From assembly GCF_014174215.1 (NCBI RefSeq), contig NZ_JABEQL010000001.1:1-64000 (forward strand): 64,000 bases of DNA, read 5' to 3'. The DNA is from Gluconacetobacter tumulicola. GTDB taxonomy: Bacteria > Pseudomonadota > Alphaproteobacteria > Acetobacterales > Acetobacteraceae. Made by a program: the position numbers and the translations under genes. This document shows, piece by piece, positions 719 to 15,764 of the stretch. A model generated the notes under the pieces. That model ran no database searches. It saw only the letters and a list, made by a program, of their open reading frames with translations, and was not told where the DNA came from. Numbering within the stretch: position 1 is the stretch's first letter; the number at the start of each line of letters is the position of its first letter.

Positions 719-2116
719 GTGTCCGCCGCCTCACCGAACCAATCGCCCCTCAACGAACGACGCGGCCTTCGGCGCGCATTCCGCAATCTGGGGGTTTTGC
801 TTGGCGGAAGGGCCCTCAATGCTCCGCTCAGTCTGCTGCATGCTTCCCTCGCCATCCACCTGCTGGGCGGTTACGGCTTCGGCCTGGTGGTCATGCTTTA
901 CGCGTTCGCCCGCACCATCGGCGATCTGGTGGATTTTCAGTCATGGCAGACCCTGCTGCAGTATGGCTTTCACCCCTTGGGCGACAGGGACCTGCCGCGC
1001 TTCCATCGCGTCCTGCGCTTCAGTTTGACCCTGGATCTGATCGGAGGCATCGCGGGCTGTGGGATCGCTGTCATCGCCAGCCTGACGATGGGACCGATCC
1101 TGGGCTGGCCGCCGATCCTGCACCCTATCGGCACATTCTACAGCCTACCCCCCCTGTTCATGGCCGCCGCCACGCCGACGGGCGTGCTGCGTATCCTTAA
1201 TCGCTTCGATCTGCTGGCCCTGCAAGGCAGCACGGCAACGATCGTGCGTCTGCTCGGAACATTGGCCCTGCCGGTGATCGGCCCCTCTTTCGAGCATCTG
1301 GCACTGGTCTGGATGCTGGCCGAGATCGTGTCCTTTACGCTGCTGTTCGGCCTGGCATGGCACGAACTGCACAAGAGGGAACTGATGGCAGGCTTCTGGA
1401 CAGGGATGGCAGATATCATCCCTGATCTGATGGAAGGCAGAATCGCCATCGACTTTCCCGGGATCTGGCGCTTCGCCTTCATCACCAACGCCAACGCCAC
1501 CCTGTCCCTGGTCTTCAGCCATGTGACGACGCTGATCGTCGGCAGCGTGCTGGGCCCCGTCAGCGCCGGCTATTATCGTATTGCCAGCCAGATCGCCGCC
1601 GGCATCGCCAAGCCCGGAACGATGATGCAGCAGACCCTCTATCCCGAAATGGCCTCCCTATGGCGGGAGGGCGCGACCGAACGGATGTACCGTCTGGCAT
1701 GGCAGTCCAGTCTGGCAGCCGGAGGTATCGGATGCCTGCTGATGGCCTTTGCGCTCCTGCTGGGGCGCCCACTACTGGGGTTGGTAATAGGCACACAGGA
1801 TCAGGCAGCCGTCAGCATCATGCTGTGGATGCTCGGTGCCGAGATCGTGGCGATTTGCGGCCTGCCGCTGGAGCCATTGCTGATGACATTCCGCCGCGCG
1901 GGCGCCGTCGTAATTGCACGCTGTGTAGATGTCATTTTCTTCCTGCCGGTTCTGATGATTCTAATCCATTTCCATGGACTGGACGGCGTAGGCCCAGCCA
2001 ATGTCGGTGGAGCGATTGTCCTGGTCCTCATGCAACTGGCCATGGCGTCGCATGCACGCCGAACGCTGACGCCCAACACCTCCTCCCCCAGCGCGTCCAA
2101 TCCAGGGCCGGCCTGA
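719..2116 (+). CDS. Oligosaccharide flippase family membrane protein (Wzx/MATE-like)
   Basis: This 465-residue polytopic protein has about 12 hydrophobic segments and the layout of MVF/Wzx-type polysaccharide transporters, with an N-terminal amphipathic region (NLGVLLGGRALNAPLSLLH) and long paired helices. The family flips undecaprenyl- or lipid-linked saccharides across the inner membrane. The GTG start at 719 is the furthest upstream in frame, and no clear ribosome site marks it. The gene stops 5 nt before the next gene, so the two are probably cotranscribed. Its position beside the sphingolipid core suggests a glycolipid or glycan substrate, which is inference. Confidence 0.7.
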   Translation: MSAASPNQSPLNERRGLRRAFRNLGVLLGGRALNAPLSLLHASLAIHLLGGYGFGLVVMLYAFARTIGDLVDFQSWQTLLQYGFHPLGDRDLPRFHRVLRFSLTLDLIGGIAGCGIAVIASLTMGPILGWPPILHPIGTFYSLPPLFMAAATPTGVLRILNRFDLLALQGSTATIVRLLGTLALPVIGPSFEHLALVWMLAEIVSFTLLFGLAWHELHKRELMAGFWTGMADIIPDLMEGRIAIDFPGIWRFAFITNANATLSLVFSHVTTLIVGSVLGPVSAGYYRIASQIAAGIAKPGTMMQQTLYPEMASLWREGATERMYRLAWQSSLAAGGIGCLLMAFALLLGRPLLGLVIGTQDQAAVSIMLWMLGAEIVAICGLPLEPLLMTFRRAGAVVIARCVDVIFFLPVLMILIHFHGLDGVGPANVGGAIVLVLMQLAMASHARRTLTPNTSSPSASNPGPA

Positions 2117-2121
2117 TCCCA

Positions 2122-3255
2122 ATGCGCATCGTCTTTCCCTATATCGCCCAGCCCCACCAAATCGCCCACTCCCTGCCAGTCGCTATGGAAATCGCGCGCC
2201 GATATCCGGAGATCGCGGTCCATATCGCCTGCCTGACAGACGAGCAGGAAGCCTATATACGGCGCCTGGCCAGCCTCTATCCGGACTCGCAGGTCGCTTA
2301 TGAACGGCTGACCCTGCCCGGACCGTTACGGCGGCAATTGACCCGTCGCGGGCCCAGCATCCTGACCAAACTGGCGACCCTGCTTTTCAACAAGAATTAT
2401 TTCGAGACATTTCAGGCGATTGTCGTTCCCGAGCGCACATCCCTCTATCTGCGCAGGATCGGGCTGCGCGCCCCCCGCCTGATCTGGACCCGACACGGTG
2501 CCGGAGACCGCGCGGTGGGCTTTGCCCGGGATGTCCGACATTTTGATTTTATCCTGATGGCAGGAAGAAAGCTGGAAAATCGCCTTCTGACCCAGGGCTC
2601 GCTGCGCCCTGGACATTACGTCACAGGGGTCTATGCCAAATTCGATCTCGTGCGCCTGATGCATAGCAACGCCCCACCATTGTTTGGCAACAGGCGCCCG
2701 ACAGTTCTCTATAATCCGCATTTCAATCCCAAGCTGACATCATGGTATAAGCTGGGCACTCAAGTTCTGGACTATTTTGCCAATCAGGACGGATACAATC
2801 TTGTTTTCGCGCCGCATTACCGGCTGTTTGACGCACATCGCGACAAAGCTGCGAGCATCCTGCGCGCCTATGAGGGAATACCGCACATGCTCATCGATCC
2901 GGGCAGCACCAGAAGCGTCGACATGACCTATACCATGGGTGCCGACCTCTATCTGGGCGATGTCAGCAGCCAGGTGGCCGAATTTCTGATCAACCCGCGT
3001 CCCTGCCTGTTTCTTGACGCGCATGAGACGAAATGGCACGACAATCCCGACTATCTGTTCTGGTCCCTGGGGCCGGTGATCGACACGGCGGCCAGCCTTG
3101 GTCAGGCTCTGGATGGCGCCGTCGCCGGGCACCCGGATTTCCTTGACCGGCAAAAATCGTATATACGTGAGACCTTCGGCCTGGCGGATATCGGGCCAAC
3201 AGCGCCAATTGGCGCGGATGCCATCGTAGAATTCCTCCGAAAGGCGCATTCATGA
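2122..3255 (+). CDS. CDP-glycerol glycerophosphotransferase-like protein (TagB/TagF family)
   Basis: The protein is 377 residues from the ATG at 2122 (MRIVFPYIAQ). The frame is open well upstream, but that part overlaps the flippase gene and is not protein-like. The GT-B-like C-terminal half resembles the glycerophosphotransferase fold: TRHGAGD, then YNPHFNPKLTSW, then FAPHYRLF, and a late DMTYTMGADLYLGDVSSQVAEFL-type block whose Asp-Val-Ser-Ser matches the CDP-glycerol binding region. The family transfers glycerol phosphate from CDP-glycerol to an acceptor. No TagD-like cytidylyltransferase sits immediately beside it, so the real donor and acceptor are uncertain. Confidence 0.6.
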   Translation: MRIVFPYIAQPHQIAHSLPVAMEIARRYPEIAVHIACLTDEQEAYIRRLASLYPDSQVAYERLTLPGPLRRQLTRRGPSILTKLATLLFNKNYFETFQAIVVPERTSLYLRRIGLRAPRLIWTRHGAGDRAVGFARDVRHFDFILMAGRKLENRLLTQGSLRPGHYVTGVYAKFDLVRLMHSNAPPLFGNRRPTVLYNPHFNPKLTSWYKLGTQVLDYFANQDGYNLVFAPHYRLFDAHRDKAASILRAYEGIPHMLIDPGSTRSVDMTYTMGADLYLGDVSSQVAEFLINPRPCLFLDAHETKWHDNPDYLFWSLGPVIDTAASLGQALDGAVAGHPDFLDRQKSYIRETFGLADIGPTAPIGADAIVEFLRKAHS

Positions 3256-3291
3256 GCGCCTTCGCCATCGCTTTGAACCTGCCTTGATTAC

Positions 3292-5058
3292 ATGCTCCAG
3301 GTGGAAGATTCGTTACCTGAAATGACACTCTCTCCGACTCCGACAGATTCTGGTCAGATGCGACGCCTCGGCGATTTTGCCACGTTTCCGGAAGCTCTGG
3401 ATTACGCTGCCCTCGGGGAAGCGGGATTCAACGTCTATTCCGGCCGTGGCCAACTGCTGGAGTCCCTCCCCTACCGAACACTGCGCGAACAGGCGCTGGA
3501 TGTCGCACGACGGCTGCTGACACTAGGGCTGCGCCCGGGTGAGCGAGTGGCAATCGTCGCGGAAAGCGATGGCGATTTCGCCCGAATCTTTTTCGGCTGC
3601 CAATATGCAGGGCTGGTACCTGCACCGTTGCCGCTGCCAGTCGCGTTCGGCGGACGCGAAGGCTATGTGACAACCCTGCGCGGTATGATCGAGAGCGCCG
3701 GCGCCGGCGCCGTCATCGTGCCCGACATCATTGCCGGCTGGACGGGCGAAATCGTCGAAGGCTTCGATCTGCGTTTCGGCGGGCGTCCAGCCGACCTGAT
3801 GGCCCTGCCGGTCGGCCCGGTCGCGCTGCCGACCGTCTCCCCCGACGATCTGTCCTATCTCCAATTCTCCTCGGGCAGCACCCGCTTTCCGATGGGGGTC
3901 GCGGTCACCCAGCAATCAGGCATGGCAAACGCCCGCGCAATCGCCCGCGACGGCCTGAAGGTCCGCGAAACGGGCGACCGGTGCGTGTCGTGGCTGCCGC
4001 TGTATCATGATATGGGCCTCGTCGGCTTCTTCCTCACGCCGGTCACCTGCCAGTTGACCGTCGATATGCTGCCAACGCGCGAGTTCGCCCGTCGTCCCCA
4101 TGTCTGGCTGGATCTGATCAGCCGCAATCGCGGCACCATTTCCTACAGCCCCTCCTTCGGTTTCGAATTGTGCGCGCGCCGTGCCTCGACGGTCACGCTC
4201 GAACTGTCGTGCTGGCGTGTCGCGGGAATCGGTGGCGACATGATCCGTCACCATATCCTCGAGGAATTTGCCGAACGCTTCGCGGCGTCCGGATTCGACG
4301 GGCGGGCGTTTACCGCCAGCTACGGCATGGCCGAGGCCACGCTGGCCATCAGCTTCGTGCCGCTCCATACCGGCATCCAGACCGATACGGTCGATCTACG
4401 TTTCCTGGAGACGCAAGGTGTGGCACGCCCCTCAAACGACCCCTCGCATGCTCTGAGAACATTCACCCTATGCGGCAAGGTTCTGCCCGAGCATGAACTG
4501 GAGGTTCGCGACCCTGCGGGGCGGCCTCTGCCGGACCGCAAGGTCGGCACCATTTTCGTCCGTGGCCCCAGCCTCATGCGCGGCTATTTCAACCAGCCCC
4601 AGGAAACCCAGCGCGTTCTGGATGCCAGCGGCTGGCTGAATACCGGCGATCTCGGTTACATGATCGACGGGCAGGTGGTCGTGACCGGCCGCGCCAAGGA
4701 TCTGATCATCATCAATGGCCGCAATATCTGGCCGCAGGACCTGGAATGGTCCGCCGAGACCGAAATCGGCGCCCTGCGCAGCCGCGATGTCGCCGTCTTC
4801 TCGATCGATCAGGAGAAGGGCGAAAAGGTCGTGGCCCTGATCCAGTGCCGCGCGGCCACCCCCGAGGCCCGCGAAACCCTGCGCAATGAAGCTGCCAGCC
4901 TGTTCCGCCGCCAGCATGGGGTCGATGTCTCCGTGATCCTGATCCCACCCCATACGCTGCCGCAGACTTCGTCGGGCAAGCTGACCCGCGCACGGGCCAA
5001 GGCCATGCTGCTGTCGGGCGCTTTCGATTCGGTCAGCGAGACCGCATCGGTCGCATGA
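3292..5058 (+). CDS. Fatty acyl-AMP ligase / acyl-ACP synthetase
   Basis: This 588-residue protein belongs to the adenylate-forming superfamily. The ATP P-loop is YLQFSSGSTRFPMGV, the A5-type motif is ASYGMAEATLA, the A7/A8 region is NTGDLGYMIDGQVVVTGRAKDLIIINGRNIWPQDLE, and the C-terminal catalytic Lys lies in TSSGKLTR. It would activate a fatty acid as acyl-AMP and load it onto the ACP encoded next. The ATG at 3292 is the longest start; an ATG at 3322 is possible. The gene order ligase, ACP, serine palmitoyltransferase matches the sphingolipid locus known from Caulobacter, so an acyl-ACP-supplying role is likely. Confidence 0.88.
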   Translation: MLQVEDSLPEMTLSPTPTDSGQMRRLGDFATFPEALDYAALGEAGFNVYSGRGQLLESLPYRTLREQALDVARRLLTLGLRPGERVAIVAESDGDFARIFFGCQYAGLVPAPLPLPVAFGGREGYVTTLRGMIESAGAGAVIVPDIIAGWTGEIVEGFDLRFGGRPADLMALPVGPVALPTVSPDDLSYLQFSSGSTRFPMGVAVTQQSGMANARAIARDGLKVRETGDRCVSWLPLYHDMGLVGFFLTPVTCQLTVDMLPTREFARRPHVWLDLISRNRGTISYSPSFGFELCARRASTVTLELSCWRVAGIGGDMIRHHILEEFAERFAASGFDGRAFTASYGMAEATLAISFVPLHTGIQTDTVDLRFLETQGVARPSNDPSHALRTFTLCGKVLPEHELEVRDPAGRPLPDRKVGTIFVRGPSLMRGYFNQPQETQRVLDASGWLNTGDLGYMIDGQVVVTGRAKDLIIINGRNIWPQDLEWSAETEIGALRSRDVAVFSIDQEKGEKVVALIQCRAATPEARETLRNEAASLFRRQHGVDVSVILIPPHTLPQTSSGKLTRARAKAMLLSGAFDSVSETASVA

Positions 5059-5062
5059 TCCG

Positions 5063-5090
5063 CTGGGGCCTGCCCCGCGACAGGCCCCAG
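5063..5090 (+). terminator. Hairpin after the acyl-AMP ligase gene
   Basis: A perfect 10-bp stem (CTGGGGCCTG / CAGGCCCCAG) with an 8-nt loop starts 5 nt after the stop codon. No U-tract follows, so it may be an attenuator or RNA-stabilising hairpin rather than a strong intrinsic terminator. A second small hairpin (CCTCTC/GAGAGG, 5133-5148) lies in the same 190-nt leader before the ACP gene. Confidence 0.4.
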
Positions 5091-5248
5091 CTTCAATACT
5101 GGCCAATCGACCGGATTTCGATATAAGGACATCCTCTCTGTTGAGAGGGGGCGCAAGCAGTCCGCCAGACTGCCCTGCTCCCCGATATGGCAGGCGGGGT
5201 TCGGGCACGTCACACGGGGACGGCTCCCGCAATAAGGATGCATTTATA

Positions 5249-5500
5249 ATGAGTGAAACGGTCGCGGACGTCTCTGCCCTGATCATCCAGACGCTGCTGG
5301 CGAATCCCAAGGTTCCCCGCGACATCAGCGGCAGCAGCAAGATCGTCGAGGATTTGGCCTTCGATTCACTCGCGGTCATGAATTTCGTAATGGAAATCGA
5401 GGATTCCCTCGACGTATCCGTTCCGCTCGACCGGCTTGCCGACATTCGCACCATCGACGACCTGGCCAACTGCATCGTGTCGCTGAAGCAGGGCGACTGA
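5249..5500 (+). CDS. Acyl carrier protein dedicated to the sphingolipid locus
   Basis: The protein has 83 residues from the ATG at 5249; an upstream in-frame extension is not ACP-like. It has the ACP helix-II motif DLAFDSLAVMNF, with Ser40 as the predicted 4'-phosphopantetheine site, and the acidic helix III region typical of type II ACPs. It is clearly different from the housekeeping AcpP at 20567-20806. It lies 4 nt upstream of serine palmitoyltransferase and downstream of the acyl-AMP ligase, so it probably carries the acyl chain handed to serine palmitoyltransferase. Confidence 0.9.
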   Translation: MSETVADVSALIIQTLLANPKVPRDISGSSKIVEDLAFDSLAVMNFVMEIEDSLDVSVPLDRLADIRTIDDLANCIVSLKQGD

Positions 5501-5504
5501 CTCC

Positions 5505-6701
5505 ATGTCGATCTTCACCAAATACGAGCCGCTGGCCCGTTCGCTGGCGGCCGTGACCAATGGCGGAGGCCGCAACCCGTTTTCCGTCGTGATCGACCAC
5601 CCCGTGTCCTCGACCGTGGGCGTGATCGAAGGGCGTGAGACCCTGCTGTTCGGCACAAACAATTACCTGGGCCTCAGCCAGAGCGAAGCGGCGATCGATG
5701 CCGCGATCGGCACACTGCGTACCCATGGGGTCGGCACCACCGGATCGCGCATCGCCAATGGCACCCAGGGCCTGCACCGCCAGTTGGAAGAGCGTATCGC
5801 CGCCTTCTTCCGCCGTCGGCATTGCATGGTATTCTCGACGGGCTACCAGGCGAATCTGGGCATGATCTCGGCCCTGGCCGGCAAGGACGATTATCTGCTG
5901 CTGGATGCCGACAGCCACGCCAGCATCTATGACGGCAGCCGGCTCAGCCAGGCGCAGGTCATCCGTTTCCGCCATAACGACCCCGAGGATTTGCACAAGC
6001 GCCTGCGCCGCCTGGACGGCACACCGGGCGCCAAGCTGATCGTCGTCGAAGGCATCTACTCAATGATGGGCGACGTGGTGCCGATGGCCGAGTTCGCGGC
6101 AGTGAAGCGCGAAACCGGCGCCTGGCTGCTGGCGGACGAGGCCCATTCCGTGGGTGTCATGGGCGAACACGGGCGCGGCGTCGCCGAAGCCTGCGGGGTC
6201 GAGGACGATGTCGATTTCGTCGTCGGCACCTTCTCCAAGAGCCTGGGTACGGTCGGCGGCTACTGCGTTTCGGACCAGGACGGGCTGGACCTGATCCGGC
6301 TATGCTCACGGCCCTATATGTTCACCGCGTCGCTTCCGCCGGACGTCATCGCCGCCACCATGGCAGCGTTGAGCGAGTTGGAGCAGCGGCCTGAGCTGCG
6401 GCACAGGCTGATGGACAATGCCCGCCGCCTGCATGCCGGCCTGAACGCGATCGGCCTGCGTACCGGTCCGCAGGCCAGCCCCGTCGTATCGGTGGTTCTG
6501 GACGAGGTCGCCCAGGCGGTACAGTTCTGGAACCGGCTCCTGGATCTGGGCGTGTATGTCAATCTCAGCTTGCCGCCCGCGACCCCCGACCAGCACCCTC
6601 TGCTGCGCACCTCGGTGATGGCGACGCATGACGCGGCGCAGATCGACCAGGCCATCGAAATCTTCGCCACGGTGGCCCGCGAAATGGGGGCCAGCCACTA
6701 G
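5505..6701 (+). CDS. spt: Serine palmitoyltransferase
   Basis: This 398-residue PLP enzyme belongs to the alpha-oxoamine synthase family. Visible features are the glycine-rich NNYLGL/GTTGSRIANGT region, a stacking His in DADSHAS (about H138), DEAHSVG (D211/H214) and the Schiff-base Lys in GTFSKSLG (K245). Related members are KBL, BioF and HemA. The ACP and acyl-ligase partners, rather than biotin or haem genes, point to serine palmitoyltransferase, which condenses serine with an acyl thioester to 3-keto-sphinganine. Length and motifs are intact. Confidence 0.88.
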   Translation: MSIFTKYEPLARSLAAVTNGGGRNPFSVVIDHPVSSTVGVIEGRETLLFGTNNYLGLSQSEAAIDAAIGTLRTHGVGTTGSRIANGTQGLHRQLEERIAAFFRRRHCMVFSTGYQANLGMISALAGKDDYLLLDADSHASIYDGSRLSQAQVIRFRHNDPEDLHKRLRRLDGTPGAKLIVVEGIYSMMGDVVPMAEFAAVKRETGAWLLADEAHSVGVMGEHGRGVAEACGVEDDVDFVVGTFSKSLGTVGGYCVSDQDGLDLIRLCSRPYMFTASLPPDVIAATMAALSELEQRPELRHRLMDNARRLHAGLNAIGLRTGPQASPVVSVVLDEVAQAVQFWNRLLDLGVYVNLSLPPATPDQHPLLRTSVMATHDAAQIDQAIEIFATVAREMGASH

Positions 6702-6714
6702 ACGCCCAGCCCCG

Positions 6715-6738
6715 CCCCGTCGTCCTCAGGCGACGGGG
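6715..6738. terminator. Hairpin between convergent genes
   Basis: A perfect 8-bp stem (CCCCGTCG / CGACGGGG) with an 8-nt loop lies between the serine palmitoyltransferase stop and the stop of the convergent Tam41-like gene. There is no U-tract on either side, so it may be a bidirectional structural barrier only. Confidence 0.4.
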
Positions 6739-6755
6739 AAGCCCCCCGACGCTCT

Positions 6756-7715
6756 TCAGCGCCGGAATATCCCAGCCCCCTTCAGCCGCCAGAGCAGCCG
6801 GGGCAGACAGATCAGCGGATGCCTGGCCTCGAACGGGGTCAGCGCAAGGTCGAACCCACTATGCCGGCGCACCTTCCAGGCGATGTAGCGCGCCCCGCCG
6901 GCGAAGGTGAAGGCGGCCTTGAACAGGCGTGCCGCATTCAACGGGCGCCCCAGATCGGCCCGAATCCGCCATTGGCGACCCGCCCGTGCGCGCGCGTCGG
7001 TCGATACTGCCGGACACAGCATGTCGCCCTCCCGCACGAACGAAAGGCCGGACGCAGCCCAGGCGGCCGGCAGCAGCACGTCGAAGCGCGCCCCCAGATC
7101 ACCGGCCAGCAGCGTGGTGGGACGATCCCCCCCTTCGACCCGCAATTCCGCAGCATAAGTCCGGCGGAATAGGCTTTCCCAATAGGCCTGTGCCGTTCCG
7201 CTCTCAGGGCCTAGCAGAGCCGCCCACCAGGCGGCCACAGCCACGGCGCGGATCAGGCAGCCCAGGATCGCGTCGGCCGCCGCCGCGTCGCGCACCCAGA
7301 CCAGTCGCACCGGCTGGCAGAAGCGTGCCCAGATCGTGGTGTCCAGATTGCCGCGCGCCGTCAGCGCCCGGAACTGCGCGACGGTCAGGATGGCGACCTT
7401 GGCCCGGACATATCGGCCATCGATGGTGCGCTCATGATATTCCACATTGGGCGGCAACAGCGCATTCGCCTCGCGCGCCGCCCTGCTGCGCGGCCAGTCC
7501 GCCTGCCGATCCAGCACGACGTAGAAATCGAGAATGCCCTCCGGGTCCACCTGCCGCAGGCCAGACCCATAGAACAGCACCCCCAGTACCGGCGCATCCC
7601 CGACCAGTTCGCCGACAAACGCCGTCACCGCCGGTTCCACCGGCCGAACCAGCTCGTCCGTCAGGATACGGGCGACCCGCCCGGCGGCGAAAAGATCGTA
7701 TCGCACGTCATCCAT
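6756..7715 (-). CDS. Tam41-like nucleotidyltransferase (phosphatidate cytidylyltransferase-like)
   Basis: The protein has 319 residues from the ATG at 7715 (MDDVRYDLFA); the frame is open further upstream only over the kinase gene. It has a nucleotidyltransferase-like GVLFYGSGLRQ followed by ILDFYVVLD, then a block (residues about 105-150) with a Gly-Lys-Val segment and NLDTTIWARFCQPV. By eye this follows the layout of Tam41, the mitochondrial CDP-diacylglycerol synthase (YGSG, an acidic strand, then a GRLxKPV-like segment). It starts 5 nt after the lipid kinase stop, so the two probably act in sequence: kinase makes a lipid phosphate, and this enzyme activates it with CTP. The substrate is inferred. 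Confidence 0.55.
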   Translation of the reverse strand: MDDVRYDLFAAGRVARILTDELVRPVEPAVTAFVGELVGDAPVLGVLFYGSGLRQVDPEGILDFYVVLDRQADWPRSRAAREANALLPPNVEYHERTIDGRYVRAKVAILTVAQFRALTARGNLDTTIWARFCQPVRLVWVRDAAAADAILGCLIRAVAVAAWWAALLGPESGTAQAYWESLFRRTYAAELRVEGGDRPTTLLAGDLGARFDVLLPAAWAASGLSFVREGDMLCPAVSTDARARAGRQWRIRADLGRPLNAARLFKAAFTFAGGARYIAWKVRRHSGFDLALTPFEARHPLICLPRLLWRLKGAGIFRR

Positions 7716-7720
7716 GGGGA

Positions 7721-8692
7721 TCAGGCATTCCGGATAAAATCGAAAGCCGGCCCCGCCGACAGATAGGTCTGCCCATCCGGACCGGAATCCAGGATTTCGC
7801 CATCCAGCACAAAGTCGCCTTCCAGCTTCAGGGCCAGACGATCGGTACGGCCACGCCGGTAGGATGGCGAGTGATCCAGCCATGCGGCGGACCGCCCGCG
7901 CAGTAACGACCATGTCGCGGAAAGCAGATGTTCGGGAAAGGCTGCGACGCTGAGATAAGACAGGCCATGCCCCTCGCGCGACGCAAAAGGCCACATGCCT
8001 CCGGGCAGGCATGCCAGCGTGGAGGCGAGGAACAGGAAACTGTCCGCCGTCCGCGGCACCTCGTCCCCGACCGCAAGCGTCACGGGATCGCCGGCCAGCC
8101 ATTTACGGCGGGTCGAGCGGAAAACAAGCCGCCCCAGCGAGGACGCGATCGCGACCCCGACCGCGAGATCATGCGAAAAGCGGTTCAGGATGACCGGCCG
8201 ATGAGCGATACGGATTCCGCGCGTGAAGGCCGCGGCACCATGGAACATCCCCAGCACGGCCGGACGCGCCGGATCGGACCAGCGAACGGCCAGCACGTTG
8301 CGCCGCAGGATGCGACGCCGCAGGGCGCCTTCGCCGGCCAGAACGCTCAACCGTTCAAGCGCCGCCTTGCCACGCAGACCGAACCCCACATCGGCGGCGA
8401 TCAGATTGGTATTCCCCGACGGCAGTACGGCAAGTGCCGGCAACGCGTCCGCCGGATAGCATTGGTGAATGGCGGACATGACATCGCTGACGGTGCCATC
8501 CCCCCCGTCGATCGCAATCACCCCGATTTCGCGTCGGGCCAGTTCGGTCACGATCTCGACCACGGCAGGCTTGGACGCCGAATGGAAGAACAGCGGCCCC
8601 AACGCCTGGGACGCACGCCGACGGAACGAGCCGTCTTCACGGCCATTGCGGCGGCTGCGCGGGTTGTGGATCAGGGCGAACCGCTCGCTCAC
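7721..8692 (-). CDS. Diacylglycerol/ceramide kinase family lipid kinase
   Basis: The protein has 323 residues, the usual DAGK-family length. The catalytic-domain hallmarks are IDGGDGTVSDV (GGDGT at about 63-67) and LPSGNTNLIA, with a C-terminal beta-sandwich region ending in LEGDFVLDGE. The family phosphorylates diacylglycerol or sphingoid lipids with ATP. Caulobacter crescentus has a DAGK-family ceramide kinase (CpgB) in its sphingolipid locus, and the position here, convergent with serine palmitoyltransferase and followed by the Tam41-like gene, supports a ceramide kinase role. The substrate cannot be read from sequence alone. Confidence 0.78.
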   Translation of the reverse strand: MSERFALIHNPRSRRNGREDGSFRRRASQALGPLFFHSASKPAVVEIVTELARREIGVIAIDGGDGTVSDVMSAIHQCYPADALPALAVLPSGNTNLIAADVGFGLRGKAALERLSVLAGEGALRRRILRRNVLAVRWSDPARPAVLGMFHGAAAFTRGIRIAHRPVILNRFSHDLAVGVAIASSLGRLVFRSTRRKWLAGDPVTLAVGDEVPRTADSFLFLASTLACLPGGMWPFASREGHGLSYLSVAAFPEHLLSATWSLLRGRSAAWLDHSPSYRRGRTDRLALKLEGDFVLDGEILDSGPDGQTYLSAGPAFDFIRNA

Positions 8693-8762: not shown

Positions 8763-8812
8763 GATCGTGAACCCCGCGGGACATGGAGGCCGACGACAGT
8801 GCGGAGGAAACC

Positions 8813-9709
8813 ATGAACGACATTACCCTGGCCCATCTGTCCGATCTGCATCTTGCACATGATGGGCTGCGGTTTCCGGCATGGGCCCTGCTGAACAAGC
8901 GCATGACCAGCCAGCTCTCCTGGCGGCGAAAGCGCCGTTTCCTGCATGTCGACACCGTTCTGGAATCCCTGGTCACCGACATCCGCGCCATGACACCGGA
9001 TGCCGTGGCCCTGACGGGGGACCTCACCAATCTGGGCCTCCCGGTGGAATGCCGGCGCGCGGCTTCATGGGTGTCGGCACGCCTGCCCCAGCAAACGGCG
9101 ATCATCCCCGGCAATCACGACATGCTGGTGCGCGCGCCCTGGGGCACCACGCTGGGGCTCTGGAAACCCTGGATGGCGACCCGGCCGGATGATTTTCCCT
9201 TTGTCCGACGGATCGGCCCGCTCGCGCTGATCGGCGTCAATTCCGCCTGCCCCACCCCCTGGTTTTCCGCCGCCGGGCGGATCGGGGCGGCGCAGGCCGC
9301 CCGCCTGACCGACATACTGCATGAAACCGGCCGCGAAGGCGCCTTCCGCGTGGTCATGATCCATCATCCACCGGTTCCCGGCATCGTGTCCCGCCGCAAG
9401 GCACTGCTGGATGGCGGACTGTTCGCCACCGCCATTGCCCGGGCGGGGGCCGAACTGGTCCTGCACGGCCACAGCCATCGCTCCGGCCTGTCCTCCCTGC
9501 CCGGCCCCACGGCGACGGTGCCGGTGCTGGGGATTGCCTCGGCCTCGATGCTGGCCCGGGGCCAGGAGCGCATGGCCGCATGGCACCATATCCGCATCGC
9601 CGGCACCGGGCGCGGCTATGCCGCCGAAATCCGCCGCCGGCTGGTCGCACCGGGCCAACCGGTCCAGGAGTTGCCGCCCTGGCGCTTCGATGTCTATCGC
9701 CTCCCCTAG
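8813..9709 (+). CDS. Calcineurin-like metallophosphoesterase
   Basis: The protein has 298 residues from the ATG at 8813, which follows a ribosome-binding GGAGG-type site (about 8802-8808). All five metal motifs of the family are present: SDLHLA (D11/H13), TGDLTN, PGNHD, HHPP and HGHSH. Such enzymes cleave phosphomono- or diesters with two metals. It opens the plus-strand operon containing the LptF/LptG-like pair and the hydroxylase, so a phospholipid- or head-group-directed phosphoesterase in sphingolipid metabolism is plausible. No signal peptide is seen, so it is probably cytosolic. Confidence 0.82.
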   Translation: MNDITLAHLSDLHLAHDGLRFPAWALLNKRMTSQLSWRRKRRFLHVDTVLESLVTDIRAMTPDAVALTGDLTNLGLPVECRRAASWVSARLPQQTAIIPGNHDMLVRAPWGTTLGLWKPWMATRPDDFPFVRRIGPLALIGVNSACPTPWFSAAGRIGAAQAARLTDILHETGREGAFRVVMIHHPPVPGIVSRRKALLDGGLFATAIARAGAELVLHGHSHRSGLSSLPGPTATVPVLGIASASMLARGQERMAAWHHIRIAGTGRGYAAEIRRRLVAPGQPVQELPPWRFDVYRLP

Positions 9710-9734
9710 GCGATGCTTGTATGTGTGGGCCGAC

Positions 9735-10931
9735 ATGATGCGCGCGCCTCGCCCTTCCGCCTTGCTGCAAAGGATCACGCCGGGAACCCTCGACCGTTAT
9801 CTGGTGCGGCAGATGGCACCGCCTTTCCTGATCTCGCTGGCCGTGGTGATGACAGCGCTGCTGCTGGAACGGCTGCTGGTCCTTCTGAACGTGCTGGCAG
9901 CGGATGGCGGCACGCTCAAGATCTTCGCCGGGCTCCTGGCCGACCTCATCCCCCATTATCTGGGCCTGGCCCTGCCGGCAGCGATCTGCGTCAGCGTCTT
10001 TTCGGTCGTTCGGCGGATGAGCCAGAACAATGAGATCGACGCCCTGATGGCCAGCGGCATCTCGCTGCTGCGGATCGCGCGCCCCTTCGTCATGGTGGGC
10101 TCGGTCATGGGCCTGGTGGGGTTCAGCCTCTATGGCTTCATCCAGCCTTATGCCCGCTACGATTTCCGGCAGGCGATGTATTTCGCCGCCCATGCGGGCT
10201 GGGCCCCCCATTTGCAAAGCGGGATGTTCGCAACCCCCGCCGACACGCTGATGCTGACGGCAGACCGGGTCGACGGGGCCGGCACGCGCCTGCACCACGT
10301 CTTCATCCGCGACCGGAGCAGCGGGCTGGAACGCGACATTTCCGCCGAGAGCGGAACCTTGCGGATCGCCGATGACCGGACCTCGGTCCGGCTCGACCTG
10401 GCGCATGGCATCATCGTCACCGACCGGCAGGACACAGCACCGACCCTGGTGCAGTTCGACACCACCACGCGTATCTTCCAGACCGTCTCGCAGGCCCACG
10501 CCTTCCGCCGCCGCGGCAATGACGAGCGGGAACTGACCCTGTTTGAACTGTTGCGGGGCGTGCATACCGGCGATCCGGCAATCCGACGGCCTCATCTGGT
10601 GGCCGAACTCCATTTCCGCCTCGCCCGCGCCCTGGCCATACCCTTCATCCCGATCCTGGCCTGTGCGCTTGCGGGCGTGGCCAAGCGCCAGCGGCGCAAT
10701 CTGGGGCTGGCCATCGCCGCCATCAGCCTGGTCGGCTTCGATCACGCGCTGCAACTGGGGCTGAGCCTGGTCGCCAGCCGCTCGATGTCACCCTGGCTCG
10801 TCATATGGGGGCCATTCTTCCTGTTCTGCGGCGCCTGCGTCTGGCTGATCGTGCATCGGACCGGATCGGCGGGAAGCGGCCGGATCTGGCGGCGCCCCTT
10901 CACCCGGCTGTCGGCCAGCCCCTCGTCATGA
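9735..10931 (+). CDS. LptF/LptG (YjgP/YjgQ) family permease, first of a pair
   Basis: The protein has 398 residues from the ATG at 9735. It has the LptF/G layout: two or three N-terminal transmembrane helices (DRYLVRQMAPPFLISLAVVM, then LIPHYLGLALPAAICVSVFSVV), the coupling-helix region QNNEIDALMASGISLLRI, a soluble periplasmic jellyroll (about residues 150-290) and three C-terminal helices. Family members form the LPS-extracting ABC permease with LptB. This copy lies inside a sphingolipid locus and has no LptB beside it, so it may be a specialised paralog. Its stop overlaps the start of the next gene (ATGA). Confidence 0.82.
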   Translation: MMRAPRPSALLQRITPGTLDRYLVRQMAPPFLISLAVVMTALLLERLLVLLNVLAADGGTLKIFAGLLADLIPHYLGLALPAAICVSVFSVVRRMSQNNEIDALMASGISLLRIARPFVMVGSVMGLVGFSLYGFIQPYARYDFRQAMYFAAHAGWAPHLQSGMFATPADTLMLTADRVDGAGTRLHHVFIRDRSSGLERDISAESGTLRIADDRTSVRLDLAHGIIVTDRQDTAPTLVQFDTTTRIFQTVSQAHAFRRRGNDERELTLFELLRGVHTGDPAIRRPHLVAELHFRLARALAIPFIPILACALAGVAKRQRRNLGLAIAAISLVGFDHALQLGLSLVASRSMSPWLVIWGPFFLFCGACVWLIVHRTGSAGSGRIWRRPFTRLSASPSS

Positions 10932-12037
10932 GTACGCCGCCCCCCTCGCCGACGCGCAACGTGCTGATCGGCTACCTGACGCGCGAACTGATCGGGCGAA
11001 TCCTGACGACAGCGGCCATCCTGCTGGCGCTGATGGAGATCCTGGCGCTGCTGGAACAGTTGACGCCGATCCTGGAACGGCACCAGGGTGCGCGCGGCAT
11101 CGCCTATTTTATGATGCTGCACGCACCCATGCTGGTGGGCGGCACCCTGCCGCTGGCAGTGCTGATCGGCTCTCTGGTCCTGCTGGTACAGATGACAACC
11201 GGCAGCGAGATCGCGATCCTGCGTGCCGCCGGCCTGACCACCCCCGGCCTGACCCGCCTGATGCTGCCCGCGATCCTCGCACTGGGCGTGGCCGGGGCCC
11301 TGGTCGACGACCAGATCACACCGCGCTCGGAACTGGCGCTGGCAAGCTGGTGGAACCGCACCGATCCCCATCCCGAAACCGGGCACGGCTTCTGGTTCCG
11401 CGCCGGTACGACACTGGCCGATATCGGCTATGTCGCCCATGGCGGCACGACCGTCACCCATGTCGACCTGTATCAGCGGGGGCCGAACGGCCGCCTGCTC
11501 CGCACCGTTCATCTCGACACGCTTCGCTATGCGGACGGTACATGGACCGACAATGGCGGACGCAGCCTCGAACCGACCGGCGCCGCCACCGTCCGTACGG
11601 CCACGCTGTCCCCCGCACCGGCGCTGGCGCATGGCTGGCCTGCCGGGATTCGCCCCGCCGACATGATCAGGCTGTCGATGGACACGCCTCCACTTTCGGC
11701 CACCACCATCATCGCGATCCTGCGCGGCCGCATGCCCGCGTCCCAGCCGCCGGCGGCCCTCCGCACTGCACTGCTGGCACGGGTGCTCACCCCCCTCAGC
11801 TTCGCGGTAATGCTGTTATTGGCCTTGCCGGTGGTCTATATCCCACCACGAAGCGGAACACGCAGCTGGCTGCCGGTCTGGTGCCTGGGGGCCGGCCTGC
11901 TGTTCGTGGTCTTCCAGGGCATGCTGCGGGCACTGGGCAACGCCGGCACGCTGCCCGCCCCGGCGGCAACCCTGCCCGGCATCGTGATCTTCACGCTCGC
12001 CGTCTGTGCCCTGGTGTTGAGGATTGAAGAGAGATGA
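10928..12037 (+). CDS. LptG/LptF family permease, second of a pair
   Basis: The protein has 369 residues from the ATG at 10928, overlapping the previous stop by 4 nt. It has an N-terminal helix pair (ELIGRILTTAAILLALMEILALLEQL; PMLVGGTLPLAVLIGSLVLLVQM), a TTGSEIAILRAAGLTTPGL coupling segment, a periplasmic beta-rich region and three C-terminal helices. It probably forms a heterodimer with the preceding protein. The lipid substrate is inferred from context: either LPS or the sphingolipid made by the neighbouring enzymes. Confidence 0.8.
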   Translation: MSTPPPSPTRNVLIGYLTRELIGRILTTAAILLALMEILALLEQLTPILERHQGARGIAYFMMLHAPMLVGGTLPLAVLIGSLVLLVQMTTGSEIAILRAAGLTTPGLTRLMLPAILALGVAGALVDDQITPRSELALASWWNRTDPHPETGHGFWFRAGTTLADIGYVAHGGTTVTHVDLYQRGPNGRLLRTVHLDTLRYADGTWTDNGGRSLEPTGAATVRTATLSPAPALAHGWPAGIRPADMIRLSMDTPPLSATTIIAILRGRMPASQPPAALRTALLARVLTPLSFAVMLLLALPVVYIPPRSGTRSWLPVWCLGAGLLFVVFQGMLRALGNAGTLPAPAATLPGIVIFTLAVCALVLRIEER

Positions 12038-12816
12038 TCGGCACGACCTTACATAACACGAATCTCCGCACCGGCCGAAGCTTCGACCTGGGGAAAATGA
12101 ATCTCCGCCAGTTGTGGATCGCCTACCTCACTTACCCGACGATCCTGCTCTATATCGTTCTGGCCGTGATCAGCCTCGTGGTGCTGGCACGGCAGTTCCC
12201 CGGCATCGGACCGGCCCTGGTCGCCGCTGGTGCCGTCGTCGCGGTCTATCCGCTGGCGTGGTACATGATCCACCGCTTCATCCTGCACGGCCGCTTCCTC
12301 TATCGGATGAAATGGACGGCCACGCTGTGGAAGCGCATCCATTTCGACCATCATCAGGACCCGCATCTGCTGGATGTGCTGTTCGGCTCGCCGCTGAATA
12401 CCATCCCCACCATCGCCATCATCACATTGCCAATCGGCTACCTGATCGGCAATGTCGGCGGCGCCGCGGCGGCAATGGGCACCGGGCTGGTCATCACCTG
12501 CATCTATGAATTCTTCCACTGCATCCAGCACCTGAACTACAAGCCGCGGATGCGCTGGATTCAGAAGATGAAGCAGCGCCATGTCCTGCATCACTTCCAT
12601 GACGAGGACGGCAATTACGGCATCACCAGCTTCGTCGTCGACCGCGTCTTCGGCACCTATTACGTCGATGCCCGCGCCCGGCCGCGCAGCGCGCATGTCT
12701 TCAACCTGGGCTACGATCTGGAAGAAGCCGGCCGCTATCCCTGGGTGATGGAACAGACCGGCGCGCCTCCGCGCGACCGGCCGGACGGGGCGACACCGCA
12801 GCGGAACGCAGCGTGA
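12034..12816 (+). CDS. Fatty acid hydroxylase / sterol desaturase family protein
   Basis: This 260-residue membrane protein carries the complete His-cluster set of the di-iron hydroxylase superfamily: HRFILH, HFDHH, HCIQH and HVLHHFH. Hydrophobic segments lie between the clusters. The start overlaps the preceding stop (ATGA), so it is translationally coupled to the LptG-like gene. Acetic acid bacteria are known to make ceramides with 2-hydroxy acyl chains, so an FA2H-like acyl-chain 2-hydroxylase or a sphingoid C4-hydroxylase is a good guess, but the position hydroxylated is not visible in the sequence. Confidence 0.82.
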   Translation: MIGTTLHNTNLRTGRSFDLGKMNLRQLWIAYLTYPTILLYIVLAVISLVVLARQFPGIGPALVAAGAVVAVYPLAWYMIHRFILHGRFLYRMKWTATLWKRIHFDHHQDPHLLDVLFGSPLNTIPTIAIITLPIGYLIGNVGGAAAAMGTGLVITCIYEFFHCIQHLNYKPRMRWIQKMKQRHVLHHFHDEDGNYGITSFVVDRVFGTYYVDARARPRSAHVFNLGYDLEEAGRYPWVMEQTGAPPRDRPDGATPQRNAA

Positions 12817-13601
12817 CGTCCGACACCCCGCCGGCCGCCCCCCTGACCGTCCTGGTCCTCGCCGGCACCCGTGCCGGCGCCGAGGACCCGATGGCCAGCG
12901 CCGCCAACGTGTCGCACAAGGCGATCCTTCCCGTGGCCGGCCGGCCGATGATCGCACGGGTGATCGACGCCCTTGCCGCCAACCCCCGCATCGGCCGCAT
13001 CGTCATCAGCATCGAAACCCCCGGCATTCTGACGAGCCTCGAACTGGACCATGCGGTGGATTTCCTGCCGCCCGCCGCCGGCCCCAGCGCCAGCGTGATG
13101 GAGGCCCTGCGCACACTCGGCACCCCGCTGCTGGTCACCACCGCCGACCATGCGCTGTTGCGCCCGGAATGGATCGACGCCTTCCTCGACTCCGTCGACG
13201 CACAGTGCGACATGGCCGCCGCCGTCGCCATGGAGGCCGATATCGCGCGCGACGTCCCAGGCACGAAACGCACGATGATCCGTCTGGCCGATGGCGCCTT
13301 TTCCGGCTGCAACCTGTTCCTGTTCCGCACGCCGGCGTCGATCGGCGTGGTGCAGTTGTGGCAGCGGATCGAGCAGGAACGCAAACGGCCGCTGCGCATG
13401 GCGCGTCTGCTGGGGATCGGCACCCTGCTGCGCTACGTGACTGGCGGCCTGACCCGCGCGGCCCTGTGCGCAAGGGTCGGCAGCCTGAGCCAGGCCTCGG
13501 TCAAACTGGTCGCCCTGCCCGACGGCCGTGCCGCCGTGGATGTCGATAAACCCGCCGACCTGATTCTGGTGGAATCCCTGCTCCGGCCCCCCTCCGAATG
13601 A
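12813..13601 (+). CDS. Nucleotidyltransferase family protein (MobA/GlmU-N-like)
   Basis: The protein has 262 residues, starting with a GTG that overlaps the hydroxylase stop (GTGA). The N-terminal Rossmann-type region TVLVLAGTRAGAEDPM...HKAILPVAGRPMIARVIDAL matches the G-x-G...K-P signature of sugar-nucleotide/NTP transferases, though GxGTRM is loosened to AGTRAG. A TTADHALL segment supplies the metal-binding Asp. Substrate unknown; the operon suggests activation of a polar head group. It is the last gene of the 8813-13601 operon. Confidence 0.7.
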   Translation: MTSDTPPAAPLTVLVLAGTRAGAEDPMASAANVSHKAILPVAGRPMIARVIDALAANPRIGRIVISIETPGILTSLELDHAVDFLPPAAGPSASVMEALRTLGTPLLVTTADHALLRPEWIDAFLDSVDAQCDMAAAVAMEADIARDVPGTKRTMIRLADGAFSGCNLFLFRTPASIGVVQLWQRIEQERKRPLRMARLLGIGTLLRYVTGGLTRAALCARVGSLSQASVKLVALPDGRAAVDVDKPADLILVESLLRPPSE

Positions 13602-13614
13602 AGGACGCATCCCT

Positions 13615-13732
13615 GTTCTTTTTTAAAAAAAAGAACCAAAAAACTTTTGATTCCTTGAGGGAAATCCTGCGGGCATCGTCGGACACCAAACGGATAAAAG
13701 TCTTTTTGCTTCTTTTTCTTCAGAAAAAGAAG
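13615..13732. repeat. A/T-rich double inverted repeat after the operon
   Basis: Two perfect inverted repeats flank this element. The first is a 10-bp stem at 13615-13636 built from GTTCTTTTTT and AAAAAAGAAC. The second is a 10-bp stem at 13709-13732 (CTTCTTTTTC, loop TTCA, GAAAAAGAAG). Poly-T/poly-A composition in an otherwise GC-rich genome suggests a terminator-like or small intergenic repeat element. It separates the sphingolipid operon from the downstream glycosyltransferase. Confidence 0.55.
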
Positions 13733-13760
13733 AAAGAGACCGCACGGTTCGCATAACTCC

Positions 13761-14846
13761 ATGCGCATCGCCTACATCATCAACTCGCTGGAGGGCGGCG
13801 GCGCTGCCTTCCCCGTGCCCGACATCACCGGCGTCCTGCGCCGCGCCGGGCACGAGGTCGCCATCTTCGCACTGCTCCGCCGCGACGGCCGCGCTCTGCC
13901 GGCGATGCAGGCAGCCGGCCTCCCGGTCCAAATCTGTCCCGAAGGACAACGCGACCATCTGGCAGCCCTGCGCTGGCTGAACCACCAGATCGGAAACTGG
14001 CACCCCGACCTGATCTGGACGTCCCTGACCCGGGCCACCGTGATAGGACAGATGGTGGGGCTGAAGCGCCGCCTCCCCGTCGTCAGTTGGCAGCATTCCG
14101 CCGGCCTGAGCCCCGCCAACACCCGCCTGCTGCGCAGCCTGCGGGGACTGAGCCGGATCTGGGTCGCCGATTCCAGTTGCGTGCTGGATTTCATGCGCCA
14201 CCGGCTGCGGATTCCGGCAAACCGCGCCGCATTGTGGCCAATTTTCCGCGCCGATCCCACCTGCCCGCCCGCCCGCGCCTGGCAAGCCGGCGAAATCGTA
14301 CGGATCGGCTCTCTGGGGCGGCTGCATCCGGTCAAGGGCTATGACGTGCTGTGTCACGCCCTCGCGCTGCTGAAGAACGACCTGTCCCTGCCGCCTTTTC
14401 AGGTCACCATCGCCGGCGAAGGCGATGCACGCCCCCAACTCGAAAGCCAGATCCGGGAACACGGCCTGACCACGCTGCGCCTGGCAGGCTTCACCAGCGC
14501 GGTGGCCGGCTTCCTGTCCACCCAGCACGGCTACGTCCAGCCCTCATTGCATGAAGGACTGTGCATCGGCGTGCATCAGGCCATGCAGGCGGGCCTGGCC
14601 CCCGTCGCCTCCGCGGTCGGCGAGATCCGCTACACCGTGCAGGACGGCGTGTCCGGACTGCTGGTTCCCCCCGCCGATCCCACCGCCCTGGCCGAGGCCC
14701 TGGCAAGGATGCTGCGCCAGCCCCAAGCCCTGGCCACCATGGGCCAGGCCGCACGAACCCACGTGCTGGACCTGTTCGCCCCCGAACGGTTCGATGCCGC
14801 CGGCGATGCGATCCTGGCACGGATCACGCCCCCTCGGCGCGGCTGA
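13761..14846 (+). CDS. Glycosyltransferase family 4 protein
   Basis: This 361-residue protein has the GT-B layout. The N-terminal IINSLEGGGAA loop is typical of GT4 enzymes, the linker is VRIGSLGRLHPVKGYDVL, and the C-terminal donor domain has TIAGEGDARPQLE and the EX7E-type segment SLHEGLCIGVHQAMQAGLAPVAS. It would transfer a sugar from a nucleotide donor to a lipid or glycan acceptor in the cytosol. It follows the sphingolipid operon after an A/T-rich repeat. A glycosyl-ceramide role is possible but not shown. Confidence 0.82.
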   Translation: MRIAYIINSLEGGGAAFPVPDITGVLRRAGHEVAIFALLRRDGRALPAMQAAGLPVQICPEGQRDHLAALRWLNHQIGNWHPDLIWTSLTRATVIGQMVGLKRRLPVVSWQHSAGLSPANTRLLRSLRGLSRIWVADSSCVLDFMRHRLRIPANRAALWPIFRADPTCPPARAWQAGEIVRIGSLGRLHPVKGYDVLCHALALLKNDLSLPPFQVTIAGEGDARPQLESQIREHGLTTLRLAGFTSAVAGFLSTQHGYVQPSLHEGLCIGVHQAMQAGLAPVASAVGEIRYTVQDGVSGLLVPPADPTALAEALARMLRQPQALATMGQAARTHVLDLFAPERFDAAGDAILARITPPRRG

Positions 14847-14852
14847 GGCCTC

Positions 14853-15764
14853 CTATCGGCCCTTGCCGATCCTCCGCCGACTCAGACGATCCAGTTCGAT
14901 CGCGATCCGACGCGGCGAGCGGCTGATCCGCTTCGCATCCACCAGCGTCACATCCCCGGCGGCGGACAAAGTGTGCAGGCCGTCGGTATAGGGCTTCCAG
15001 TCCGCCGCCGCGACGATGGGCGCGCCGGCCCGGGCGACAAAGCGCGTCGTCCCCAGTTCGGTGATCGTCAGAGGCACGATCGCCCCGCCATACGTGCCCG
15101 TGCAATCCTGGGTCGGCAGCACCACCCGCCCATCAACCAGGATCGGCGTGCCCCCCGGCCGCGCACTGCGACGATCCCGCCGCACCGGATTGCCGGGATG
15201 CAGATGCCACGGGCCGCGCAGCGTGTCGGCCCAGGCGACATGCAGCAGACTCTGCTTGTCTTCCGCCGACCCGCTGGAGGGGCAGTAGAACATCCACCAC
15301 CTACCATCGATCCGCACCGGCGAAGCATCGATCGCCGCTTCGGGAAAGGCGAAATCGGGGACCTTCTCCCAGCGATCGGGAAAGGAGGCGGCGCGATACA
15401 ATGTCAGCCGACCGGACCGATAGGCTTCGGGCAGCAGATAGATCTCATCCCCTTCCGCGATCACCACCGGATAGGACAGATGCCACGGCTCGGACAGCGC
15501 CGACCGTGCATCCAGAAGGCGCATCGCCCGATCGAAGACGAAGACGTCGATCCGGCCGATCCGGTCGCGATAATCATAAACCTCGGCAAACAGATACAGC
15601 CGATCATCCCGCCACACCCCGAACGGATCGGCCAGAAAACGGAACGGCCCGAGATCCGGCAGCCAGGTCACCGGTAACCCGTCAACGCCGCCACGCGCCA
15701 GGATTTCGGGCAGCGCACAGGGCAGAATGCCCGTCCGCCAGATATCGGTGCGCAGGATGCCCAT
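14853..15764 (-). CDS. GINT1-N-like / beta-propeller protein (possible glycosylhydrolase-43 fold)
   Basis: The protein has 303 residues from the ATG at 15764, preceded by GGGGAG at good spacing; an ATG at 15776 is an alternative. The repeated pattern FLADPFGVWRDDRLYLFAEVY, HLSYPVVIAEGDEIYLLPE, AIDASPVRIDGRWWMFY and PILVDGRVVLPTQD is a bladed propeller, like the N-terminal domain of plant glucosamine inositolphosphorylceramide transferase 1. That domain is often found stand-alone or fused to formyltransferase or glycosyltransferase domains in bacteria. It converges with the glycosyltransferase (6-nt gap). The biochemical role is unknown; the link to glycosylated sphingolipids is suggestive only. 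Confidence 0.6.
   Translation of the reverse strand: MGILRTDIWRTGILPCALPEILARGGVDGLPVTWLPDLGPFRFLADPFGVWRDDRLYLFAEVYDYRDRIGRIDVFVFDRAMRLLDARSALSEPWHLSYPVVIAEGDEIYLLPEAYRSGRLTLYRAASFPDRWEKVPDFAFPEAAIDASPVRIDGRWWMFYCPSSGSAEDKQSLLHVAWADTLRGPWHLHPGNPVRRDRRSARPGGTPILVDGRVVLPTQDCTGTYGGAIVPLTITELGTTRFVARAGAPIVAAADWKPYTDGLHTLSAAGDVTLVDAKRISRSPRRIAIELDRLSRRRIGKGR

Follow-up and report, generated by a model that had tools for sequence, protein, structure and literature searches.

The closest described relatives of the locus reported here come from Caulobacter, Gluconobacter, and the Bacteroidetes. In Caulobacter, the cluster CC_1168-CC_1152 unites LptC2/F2/G2 and a flippase with five genes for ceramide and six for the head group (PMC11324152). 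CC_1160, encoding a kinase, and CC_1161 are needed for ceramide-phosphoglycerate (CPG), and CC_1159, CC_1158, CC_1153, and CC_1152 for efficient formation of CPG2, which bears a tandem phosphoglycerate (PMC11324152). The ceramide kinase CpgB carries a GGDG motif (PMC10331486), CpgD (CCNA_01210) makes cytidine diphosphate (CDP)-glycerate (PMC12275187), and the reductase CerR, an NDUFA9-like protein for which no electron donor is known, is described as periplasmic (PMC11087976). Gluconobacter oxydans 621H possesses the trio GOX2056-2058, with the candidates GOX1849 and GOX2417 lying apart from it (PMC9386255). Bacteroides thetaiotaomicron BT_0972 is a bacterial short-chain dehydrogenase/reductase (SDR) with 3-ketosphinganine reductase activity (PMC9278070), and a putative alternative inositol lipid cluster of the Bacteroidetes represents a related gene set proposed for inositol (sphingo)lipids (PMC9246714). 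Here, we describe a 14-gene locus at positions 719-15764 of a 64,000-nucleotide stretch of Gluconacetobacter tumulicola DNA (contig NZ_JABEQL010000001.1, positions 1 to 64,000), hereafter the window.

Gene content of the locus

We estimate a probability of roughly 75% that this locus serves the synthesis and export of a ceramide-phosphosphingolipid and belongs to the Caulobacter cpg kind, in a form common in acetic acid bacteria. An earlier note, made from the sequence alone, had listed 14 gene classes for this region and read it as a locus for sphingolipid synthesis, modification, and export. Scans with Pfam and NCBIfam profiles, fold comparison, and profiles of orthologues recovered all 14 classes with their coordinates, and the functional reading is supported by gene families, gene order, and conservation. 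The genes are listed below with their predicted products (pLDDT, predicted local distance difference test; ACP, acyl carrier protein).

719..2116, plus strand: MOP-family flippase (PF13440, 26.2 bits, cut-off 23), in a place comparable to that of the Caulobacter flippase CC_1166
2122..3255, plus strand: TagF-like protein (Glyphos_transf; PF04464 via orthologues), candidate CDP-polyol phosphotransferase, optional
3292..5058, plus strand: AasR, fatty acyl-AMP/acyl-ACP ligase (NF006624, 909.8 bits, cut-off 600)
5249..5500, plus strand: AcpR, dedicated ACP (PF00550, E 6e-9, obtained on the longer frame 5141-5500)
5505..6701, plus strand: Spt, serine palmitoyltransferase (NF047599, 641.9 bits, cut-off 500; solved Spt 2x8u, E 5.2e-124)
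6756..7715, minus strand: CpgC-like nucleotidyltransferase of Tam41 fold (AlphaFold pLDDT 89; Foldseek 6ig4, E 1.6e-8)
7721..8692, minus strand: CpgB-like predicted ceramide kinase (PF00781, E 1.7e-11; GGDG motif in the translation)
8813..9709, plus strand: calcineurin-like phosphoesterase in the CC_1158 position (PF00149, E 7.6e-10)
9738..10931, plus strand: LptF2 (PF03739, E 5.1e-58)
10928..12037, plus strand: LptG2 (PF03739, E 2.7e-50)
12034..12816, plus strand: fatty-acid/sphingoid hydroxylase (PF04116, E 8.8e-22)
12813..13601, plus strand: nucleotidyltransferase of the MobA/CofC type (PF12804), placed like CC_1153 and distinct from CpgD
13761..14846, plus strand: GT4 glycosyltransferase, optional (PF00534, E 2.3e-28)
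14853..15764, minus strand: GINT1_N-domain protein, GH43-like, optional (PF24793, E 1.2e-31, 110.3 bits, cut-off 27; the longer frame 14853-16724 was scanned)

Curated cut-offs were exceeded by Spt, the ligase, the kinase, the phosphoesterase, LptF/G, and the hydroxylase. The genome assembly comprises 4.29 Mb in 90 contigs with a completeness of 100, and the Spt of the window shares 99% identity with its G. aggeris counterpart, with the adjoining genes at 96-100%.

The likeness to Caulobacter extends well beyond the trio of serine palmitoyltransferase, ACP, and ligase, to which the earlier note had limited the precedent. The trio is indeed established there, but Caulobacter counterparts in a comparable order also exist for the flippase, the CDP-transferase (CpgC-type), the kinase (CpgB-type), the phosphoesterase, LptF2/LptG2, and the nucleotidyltransferase (CC_1153-type) (PMC11324152, PMC10331486, PMC12275187). 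Unlike the Caulobacter cluster, the locus is devoid of CerR, CpgA, CerS, LptC2, and a CpgD-type gene; it adds the TagF-like gene, the PF04116 hydroxylase, GT4, and GINT1_N, and CerS lies elsewhere beside an SDR. As in G. oxydans 621H, the aasR-acpR-spt trio is accompanied by candidates for the acyltransferase and the reductase that are encoded apart from it (PMC9386255). Nearly the whole arrangement is thus precedented in Caulobacter, and the trio with a split pathway in G. oxydans, which makes the locus a variant of a known cluster type. What is new and worthwhile is the lack of CerR and CpgA, the pairing of an SDR with CerS, and a third Lpt pair. Among the open-licence titles and abstract openings listed, no paper described for acetic acid bacteria such an SDR-CerS pair, a sphingolipid gene of the TagF-like kind, or a third pair of LptF and LptG, which is weak evidence of absence.

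Conservation and fuller gene sets

A scan with Spt matched 263 relatives; the 80 best, whose titles all name acetic-acid-bacterial genera, were retained as a sample that favours near kin, and genes were counted in these loci at E <= 1e-5, with partial matches included. The ten core genes (ligase, ACP, SPT, CpgC, CpgB, phosphoesterase, LptF2, LptG2, hydroxylase, and nucleotidyltransferase) were all matched in 73 of the 80 nearest loci, which argues that their grouping is not due to chance. AasR, AcpR, and Spt were matched in every locus, each gene from CpgC through the hydroxylase in 75, and the nucleotidyltransferase in 73; it alone was missing from L006 and L027, both of which are whole short contigs. 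In the Acetobacter loci L037, L039, L044, and L045, the trio is kept and the CpgC-to-hydroxylase block was not found within 10 kb. The flippase and the TagF-like gene are still there in L037, L039, and L044 despite the absence of this block.

Across the class, Spt was found at E <= 1e-110 in 49 of 385 genomes, and stretches were taken around 20 of these 49, eleven of them extended. The non-Acetobacteraceae genomes G271 and G175, each read from two stretches, carry a fuller set. The order in G271 is flippase, TagF-like, AasR, CerR, AcpR, and Spt; CpgC, CpgB, and CpgA; and phosphoesterase, HIT, LptF2, LptG2, hydroxylase, CerS, and CC_1153-like. The same genes occur in G175, where the second half is inverted and precedes the first. 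The window locus is this set minus CerR, CpgA, HIT, and CerS. With queries for CerR, CpgA, CerS, and the CpgD-type gene run against the loci at E <= 1e-8, presence being limited by stretch length, CerR was matched in 17 of the 20 class loci vs none of the 80 acetic-acid-bacterial loci, and CerS in 10 of 20 vs none of 80. L104, among the three loci that CerR missed, is itself from the Acetobacteraceae.

Ceramide synthesis outside the locus

The earlier note had placed ceramide synthase and reductase outside the locus, and the split pathway was borne out. A single CerS gene was found in the genome, on a contig other than that of the locus (C3:153922-155058; 40% identity, E 2.1e-83, with the CerS of the G159 spt cluster as query), and no close match to CerR, the best covering 239 residues at 39%. 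This best match is also where the genome departs from the proposal for G. oxydans, in which an epimerase-type gene, GOX1849, is the reductase (PMC9386255); we propose instead the divergent neighbour of CerS, a classical SDR (PF00106, E 1.3e-35).

Among 60 genomes of the family, CerS was detected in 25 at E <= 1e-30. When 1.5 kb on either side of CerS was examined, the SDR adjoined CerS in 18 of these 25, comprising all 18 with a CerS identity of at least 45% and none of the seven at 41% or less. Spt was present in 18 of the 60 genomes; all 18 carried CerS at 40% or more, and 16 had the SDR beside it. In the other two, G405 and G432, CerS lies beside Spt, accompanied in G432 by CerR (49-51%) and in G405 instead by an SDR-like match near AasR (46% over 226 residues). 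In G334 and G394, which gave no match to the Spt model, the SDR-CerS pair adjoins an alpha-oxoamine synthase. These two synthases, which we infer to be SPTs, score highest as bioF, below every cut-off (340/426 and 323/426 bits), with the SPT models lower. A 20-kb stretch of G334 brings together the SDR, CerS, the alpha-oxoamine synthase, CpgC, CpgB, phosphoesterase, LptF2/G2, hydroxylase, a CC_1153-like gene, a flippase, two TagF-like genes, and GINT1_N. In the 20 class loci, a match to the SDR appeared in L103 alone (29%), and not beside the CerS of that locus.

The motifs TGxxxGxG and YxxxK are present in all 20 aligned SDR rows (18 genomes, G334 and G394 twice), no signal peptide was obvious by eye, and none of the 25 NCBIfam families listed gave an equivalog that reached its cut-off. 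BT_0972 likewise belongs to the SDR family and has both motifs (PMC9278070); unlike BT_0972, the SDR of the window's genome is genetically paired with CerS, and its reductase role is predicted.

The CerR query matched 49 of the 60 family genomes at E <= 1e-12, with an identity of at least 50% in G432 and G441 only. Matches occurred in 40 of the 42 genomes without Spt (including G441) vs 9 of the 18 with Spt (including G432), with a Fisher p of 1.3e-4 that serves as a guide only, the genomes being related and the Spt-bearing ones tending to be smaller. Because matches to this query are thus commoner where Spt is absent, the weak CerR-like gene at C6:199494-200204 was judged unlikely to be the reductase. 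The CerR-like gene of G441 (G441:C135:36249-37166, 52% identity) sits in a genome in which neither Spt nor CerS was matched at the thresholds applied. The recurrence of the SDR-CerS pair in 16 of the 18 sampled Spt-bearing Acetobacteraceae, the rarity of CerR, and the precedent of BT_0972 lead us to predict that this SDR replaces CerR in acetic acid bacteria.

Head-group genes

The protein at 6756-7715 gave no Pfam match on its own, and the top five Foldseek hits of its model were Tam41 chains (best E 1.6e-8, template modelling (TM) scores 0.50/0.57). For the protein at 12813-13601, TTHA0179 (2dpw, E 1.4e-20) was the only solved relative at E <= 0.01, and the CpgD-like structure 4jd0 was not matched. 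We had considered this nucleotidyltransferase as CpgD and rejected the assignment: the locus-tag offset (CCNA_01217-01219 correspond to CC_1159-CC_1161) puts CpgD at CC_1152, and the relative is 2dpw, not 4jd0. By family and position, it is CC_1153-like.

CpgA was found in none of the 80 acetic-acid-bacterial loci, vs 5 matches among the 20 class loci, nor was it found in the genome of the window, whose three PF01066 genes resemble CpgA over ~80-150 residues at most, at 28-32%. CpgD was likewise not found in the 80 loci, as judged with a query taken for CpgD from gene order in G186 and G202; this search covered the locus, the rest of the genome not being searched. The earlier suggestion of a glycero-phosphorylated ceramide is plausible as such, but of the genes on which the second phosphoglycerate depends in Caulobacter, CpgA was not found in the genome, nor CpgD in the locus. 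Since CpgA is lacking, the CPG2 of Caulobacter is probably not made.

The product could nevertheless be CPG2 if the CpgA and CpgD activities came from unrecognised genes, for instance the TagF-like gene for CpgA, and the CC_1153-like gene or a distant cytidylyltransferase for CpgD. The nucleotidyltransferase of the window fits CC_1153 by position and family, and Caulobacter needs CC_1153 for CPG2 (PMC11324152). The donor of TagF is a CDP-polyol, an analogy drawn in PMC12275187, and TagF-like genes occur preferentially alongside Spt (in 9 of 11 genomes, vs 49 of 385 overall). Against this stand the absence of CpgA from the loci and of any CpgA-like protein among the three PF01066 genes, and the gene content of other genomes. 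G175 and G271 hold TagF-like together with CpgA, and one contig of G202 holds TagF-like, CpgA, and a CpgD-type gene (type inferred), so that TagF-like as a straight substitute for CpgA or CpgD is ruled out as a simple rule. CPG2 as the product is, on this balance, very improbable.

Optional genes at the locus edges

The remaining genes vary among relatives: matches to TagF-like were seen in 65 of the 80 loci, compared with 41 for GT4, 28 for the flippase, and 21 for GINT1_N, the 5' genes being under-counted because many contigs end just upstream. Related contigs often end immediately upstream of the TagF-like or AasR gene. The 5' end of a 16S ribosomal RNA gene lies directly upstream of the locus in the window (1-97, minus strand; RF00177), and a 16S end also stands at the contig start in L044 and L051; in L051, it occupies 1-76, and AasR starts at 1156 with no TagF-like match in between. 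In L026 (G. diazotrophicus PA1 5), the TagF-like match upstream of AasR is a 48-residue piece only, which suggests decay. A conserved protein of ~165 residues, nuclease-like by eye ('ADIMAL...CIEIKSG'), is found in L011, L013, and L026 between the CC_1153-like gene (or GT4 where present) and IMPase, occupying the GINT1_N place of the window.

The TagF-like protein (2122-3255) had no significant Pfam match on its own; 12 of 20 aligned orthologues matched PF04464 (best E 1.6e-6), with no epimerase family among the matches. Its model is of the GT-B type (pLDDT 84), and Foldseek ranked uridine diphosphate-N-acetylglucosamine 2-epimerases first to third and TagF from the fourth place onward with similar scores. 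Comparison of the alignment profile with PDB sequences gave two weak matches, both to one AP2 protein, which we take as chance. As for the glycosylated ceramide considered in the earlier note, one glycosyltransferase and one GINT1_N protein are present, but both are optional among relatives. No paper on the function of bacterial GINT1_N was found among the matches listed in the literature search. TagF-like, GT4, and GINT1_N would at best be optional head-group modifiers.

Pfam families of the flippase, TagF-like, GT4, and GINT1_N genes serve polysaccharide pathways too, and these four might be unrelated genes for an envelope polymer, teichoic-acid-like or polysaccharide, that only happen to adjoin the sphingolipid genes. 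All four are optional and sit toward the ends of the locus. L104 and L159 have GINT1_N, and L104 has GT4, without a TagF-like gene in the stretch, and six of the 11 genomes with TagF-like genes, all six Spt-bearing and other than those of the window, G175, G271, and G334, carry the gene on a different contig from Spt or at a distance from it. However, in the G334 stretch, GINT1_N is flanked by the two TagF-like genes in the company of the flippase and the sphingolipid genes. TagF-like genes, found in 11 of the 385 class genomes, also remain enriched with Spt when the family of the window is removed (7 of 8, vs 45 of 380 overall). We therefore regard a separate envelope polymer as unlikely.

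Export pairs and the inositol-type cluster

The genome contains three LptF/LptG pairs (six PF03739 genes) and one LptC match. The pair on contig C2 adjoins LptD and SurA. In a tree of 16 rows, in which LptG2 and the C2 pair sit on long branches, LptF2 of the window clusters with LptF2 from four further spt-linked loci (97/99) and separately from the LptF linked to LptD, and LptG2 pairs with that of G271 (98/97). LptF2/LptG2 of the locus appear, on this tree, to be distinct from the lipopolysaccharide (LPS) pair.

The third pair, which groups with a pair of G355 (100/100 each), belongs to a cluster on contig C16 (L120:6513-14727) comprising GT4, LptF/LptG, a CDP-alcohol transferase, an IMPCT-like nucleoside triphosphate (NTP) transferase (2xme, E 1.9e-19), and inositol-1-phosphate synthase, followed by a glycerate kinase. 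No HAD hydrolase scored over the cut-off among five neighbours scanned in Pfam. As in the Bacteroidetes cluster (PMC9246714), an inositol phosphate synthase, an NTP transferase, and a CDP-alcohol transferase are joined; unlike it, the C16 cluster is alphaproteobacterial and has its own LptF/LptG pair and a glycosyltransferase. It is a candidate for inositol-(sphingo)lipid synthesis and export.

The ceramide might then be destined mainly for inositol phosphoceramide through this separate cluster, as proposed for inositol sphingolipids with a similar set in Bacteroidetes (PMC9246714). The homologous cluster of G355 (L088) sits between acpR-spt and aasR, and the C16 CDP-alcohol transferase was found at E <= 1e-25 in three of the 385 class genomes, all with a Spt match, that of G246 being partial and just under the cut-off. 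However, physical linkage to spt is seen in one genome only, the acceptor could be diacylglycerol, and CpgB and CpgC of the window would be left unexplained, which renders this destination distinctly unlikely. The passages of PMC9246714 on Acetobacter malorum do not specify the head groups of that species.

Proposed pathway and its meaning

Under the cpg-type reading, AasR would load a fatty acid onto AcpR, and Spt would join the acyl group to serine. CerS and, most likely, the divergent SDR, both encoded on C3, would N-acylate and reduce the product to dihydroceramide in the cytosol, and the hydroxylase would add a hydroxyl group. CpgB would make ceramide-1-phosphate, which CpgC, with its Tam41 fold, probably converts with cytidine triphosphate into CDP-ceramide, to which glycerate or another small alcohol would then be joined. 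Processing of the head group may fall to the CC_1153-like nucleotidyltransferase and the phosphoesterase. In loci that have them, the TagF-like protein probably attaches a polyol phosphate from a CDP-linked donor, and GT4 and GINT1_N may decorate the lipid. Finally, the flippase and LptF2G2 would move it outward. The product is thus probably a hydroxylated ceramide-phospho-glycerate-type lipid, with a predicted head group and reductase and with LptF2G2 as its exporter.

Several observations weigh against this reading. Gene families, order, and conservation are directly observed, and every activity is deduced from them; the CC_ and Cpg names used here follow gene order, domains, and published descriptions. 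With CpgA and CpgD, needed for CPG2 in Caulobacter, missing from the locus, the head group is a tentative assignment, and the TM scores between the CpgC-like model and Tam41 are moderate. Five of the 80 loci (L037, L039, L044, L045, and L075, the last an 8-kb contig) have the trio and no CpgC-to-hydroxylase block in the fetched DNA. The TagF-like gene was not found (E <= 1e-15) in G026 and G158, family genomes that keep Spt, so its step is not obligatory.

Taken jointly, the data allow a broader proposal, for and against which we see about equal odds. Acetic acid bacteria may have swapped the periplasmic NDUFA9-like CerR for a cytosolic classical SDR paired with CerS. Ceramide synthesis would in that case be completed within the cell, ahead of the addition of the head group, which inverts the export-then-reduce order proposed for Caulobacter, and up to three dedicated LptF/LptG pairs would export LPS, a CPG-type sphingolipid, and an inositol-type lipid. 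The ordering and placing of bacterial ceramide steps are disputed, since Caulobacter CerR is periplasmic without an obvious electron donor (PMC11087976). A culturable group with an apparent CerR-to-SDR swap, in which the SDR is tied genetically to CerS, makes the question of order and compartment testable. The locus also offers a natural test of which head-group genes can be dispensed with, CpgA and CpgD being the candidates, and of how multiple LptF/LptG pairs operate alongside the one LptC found.

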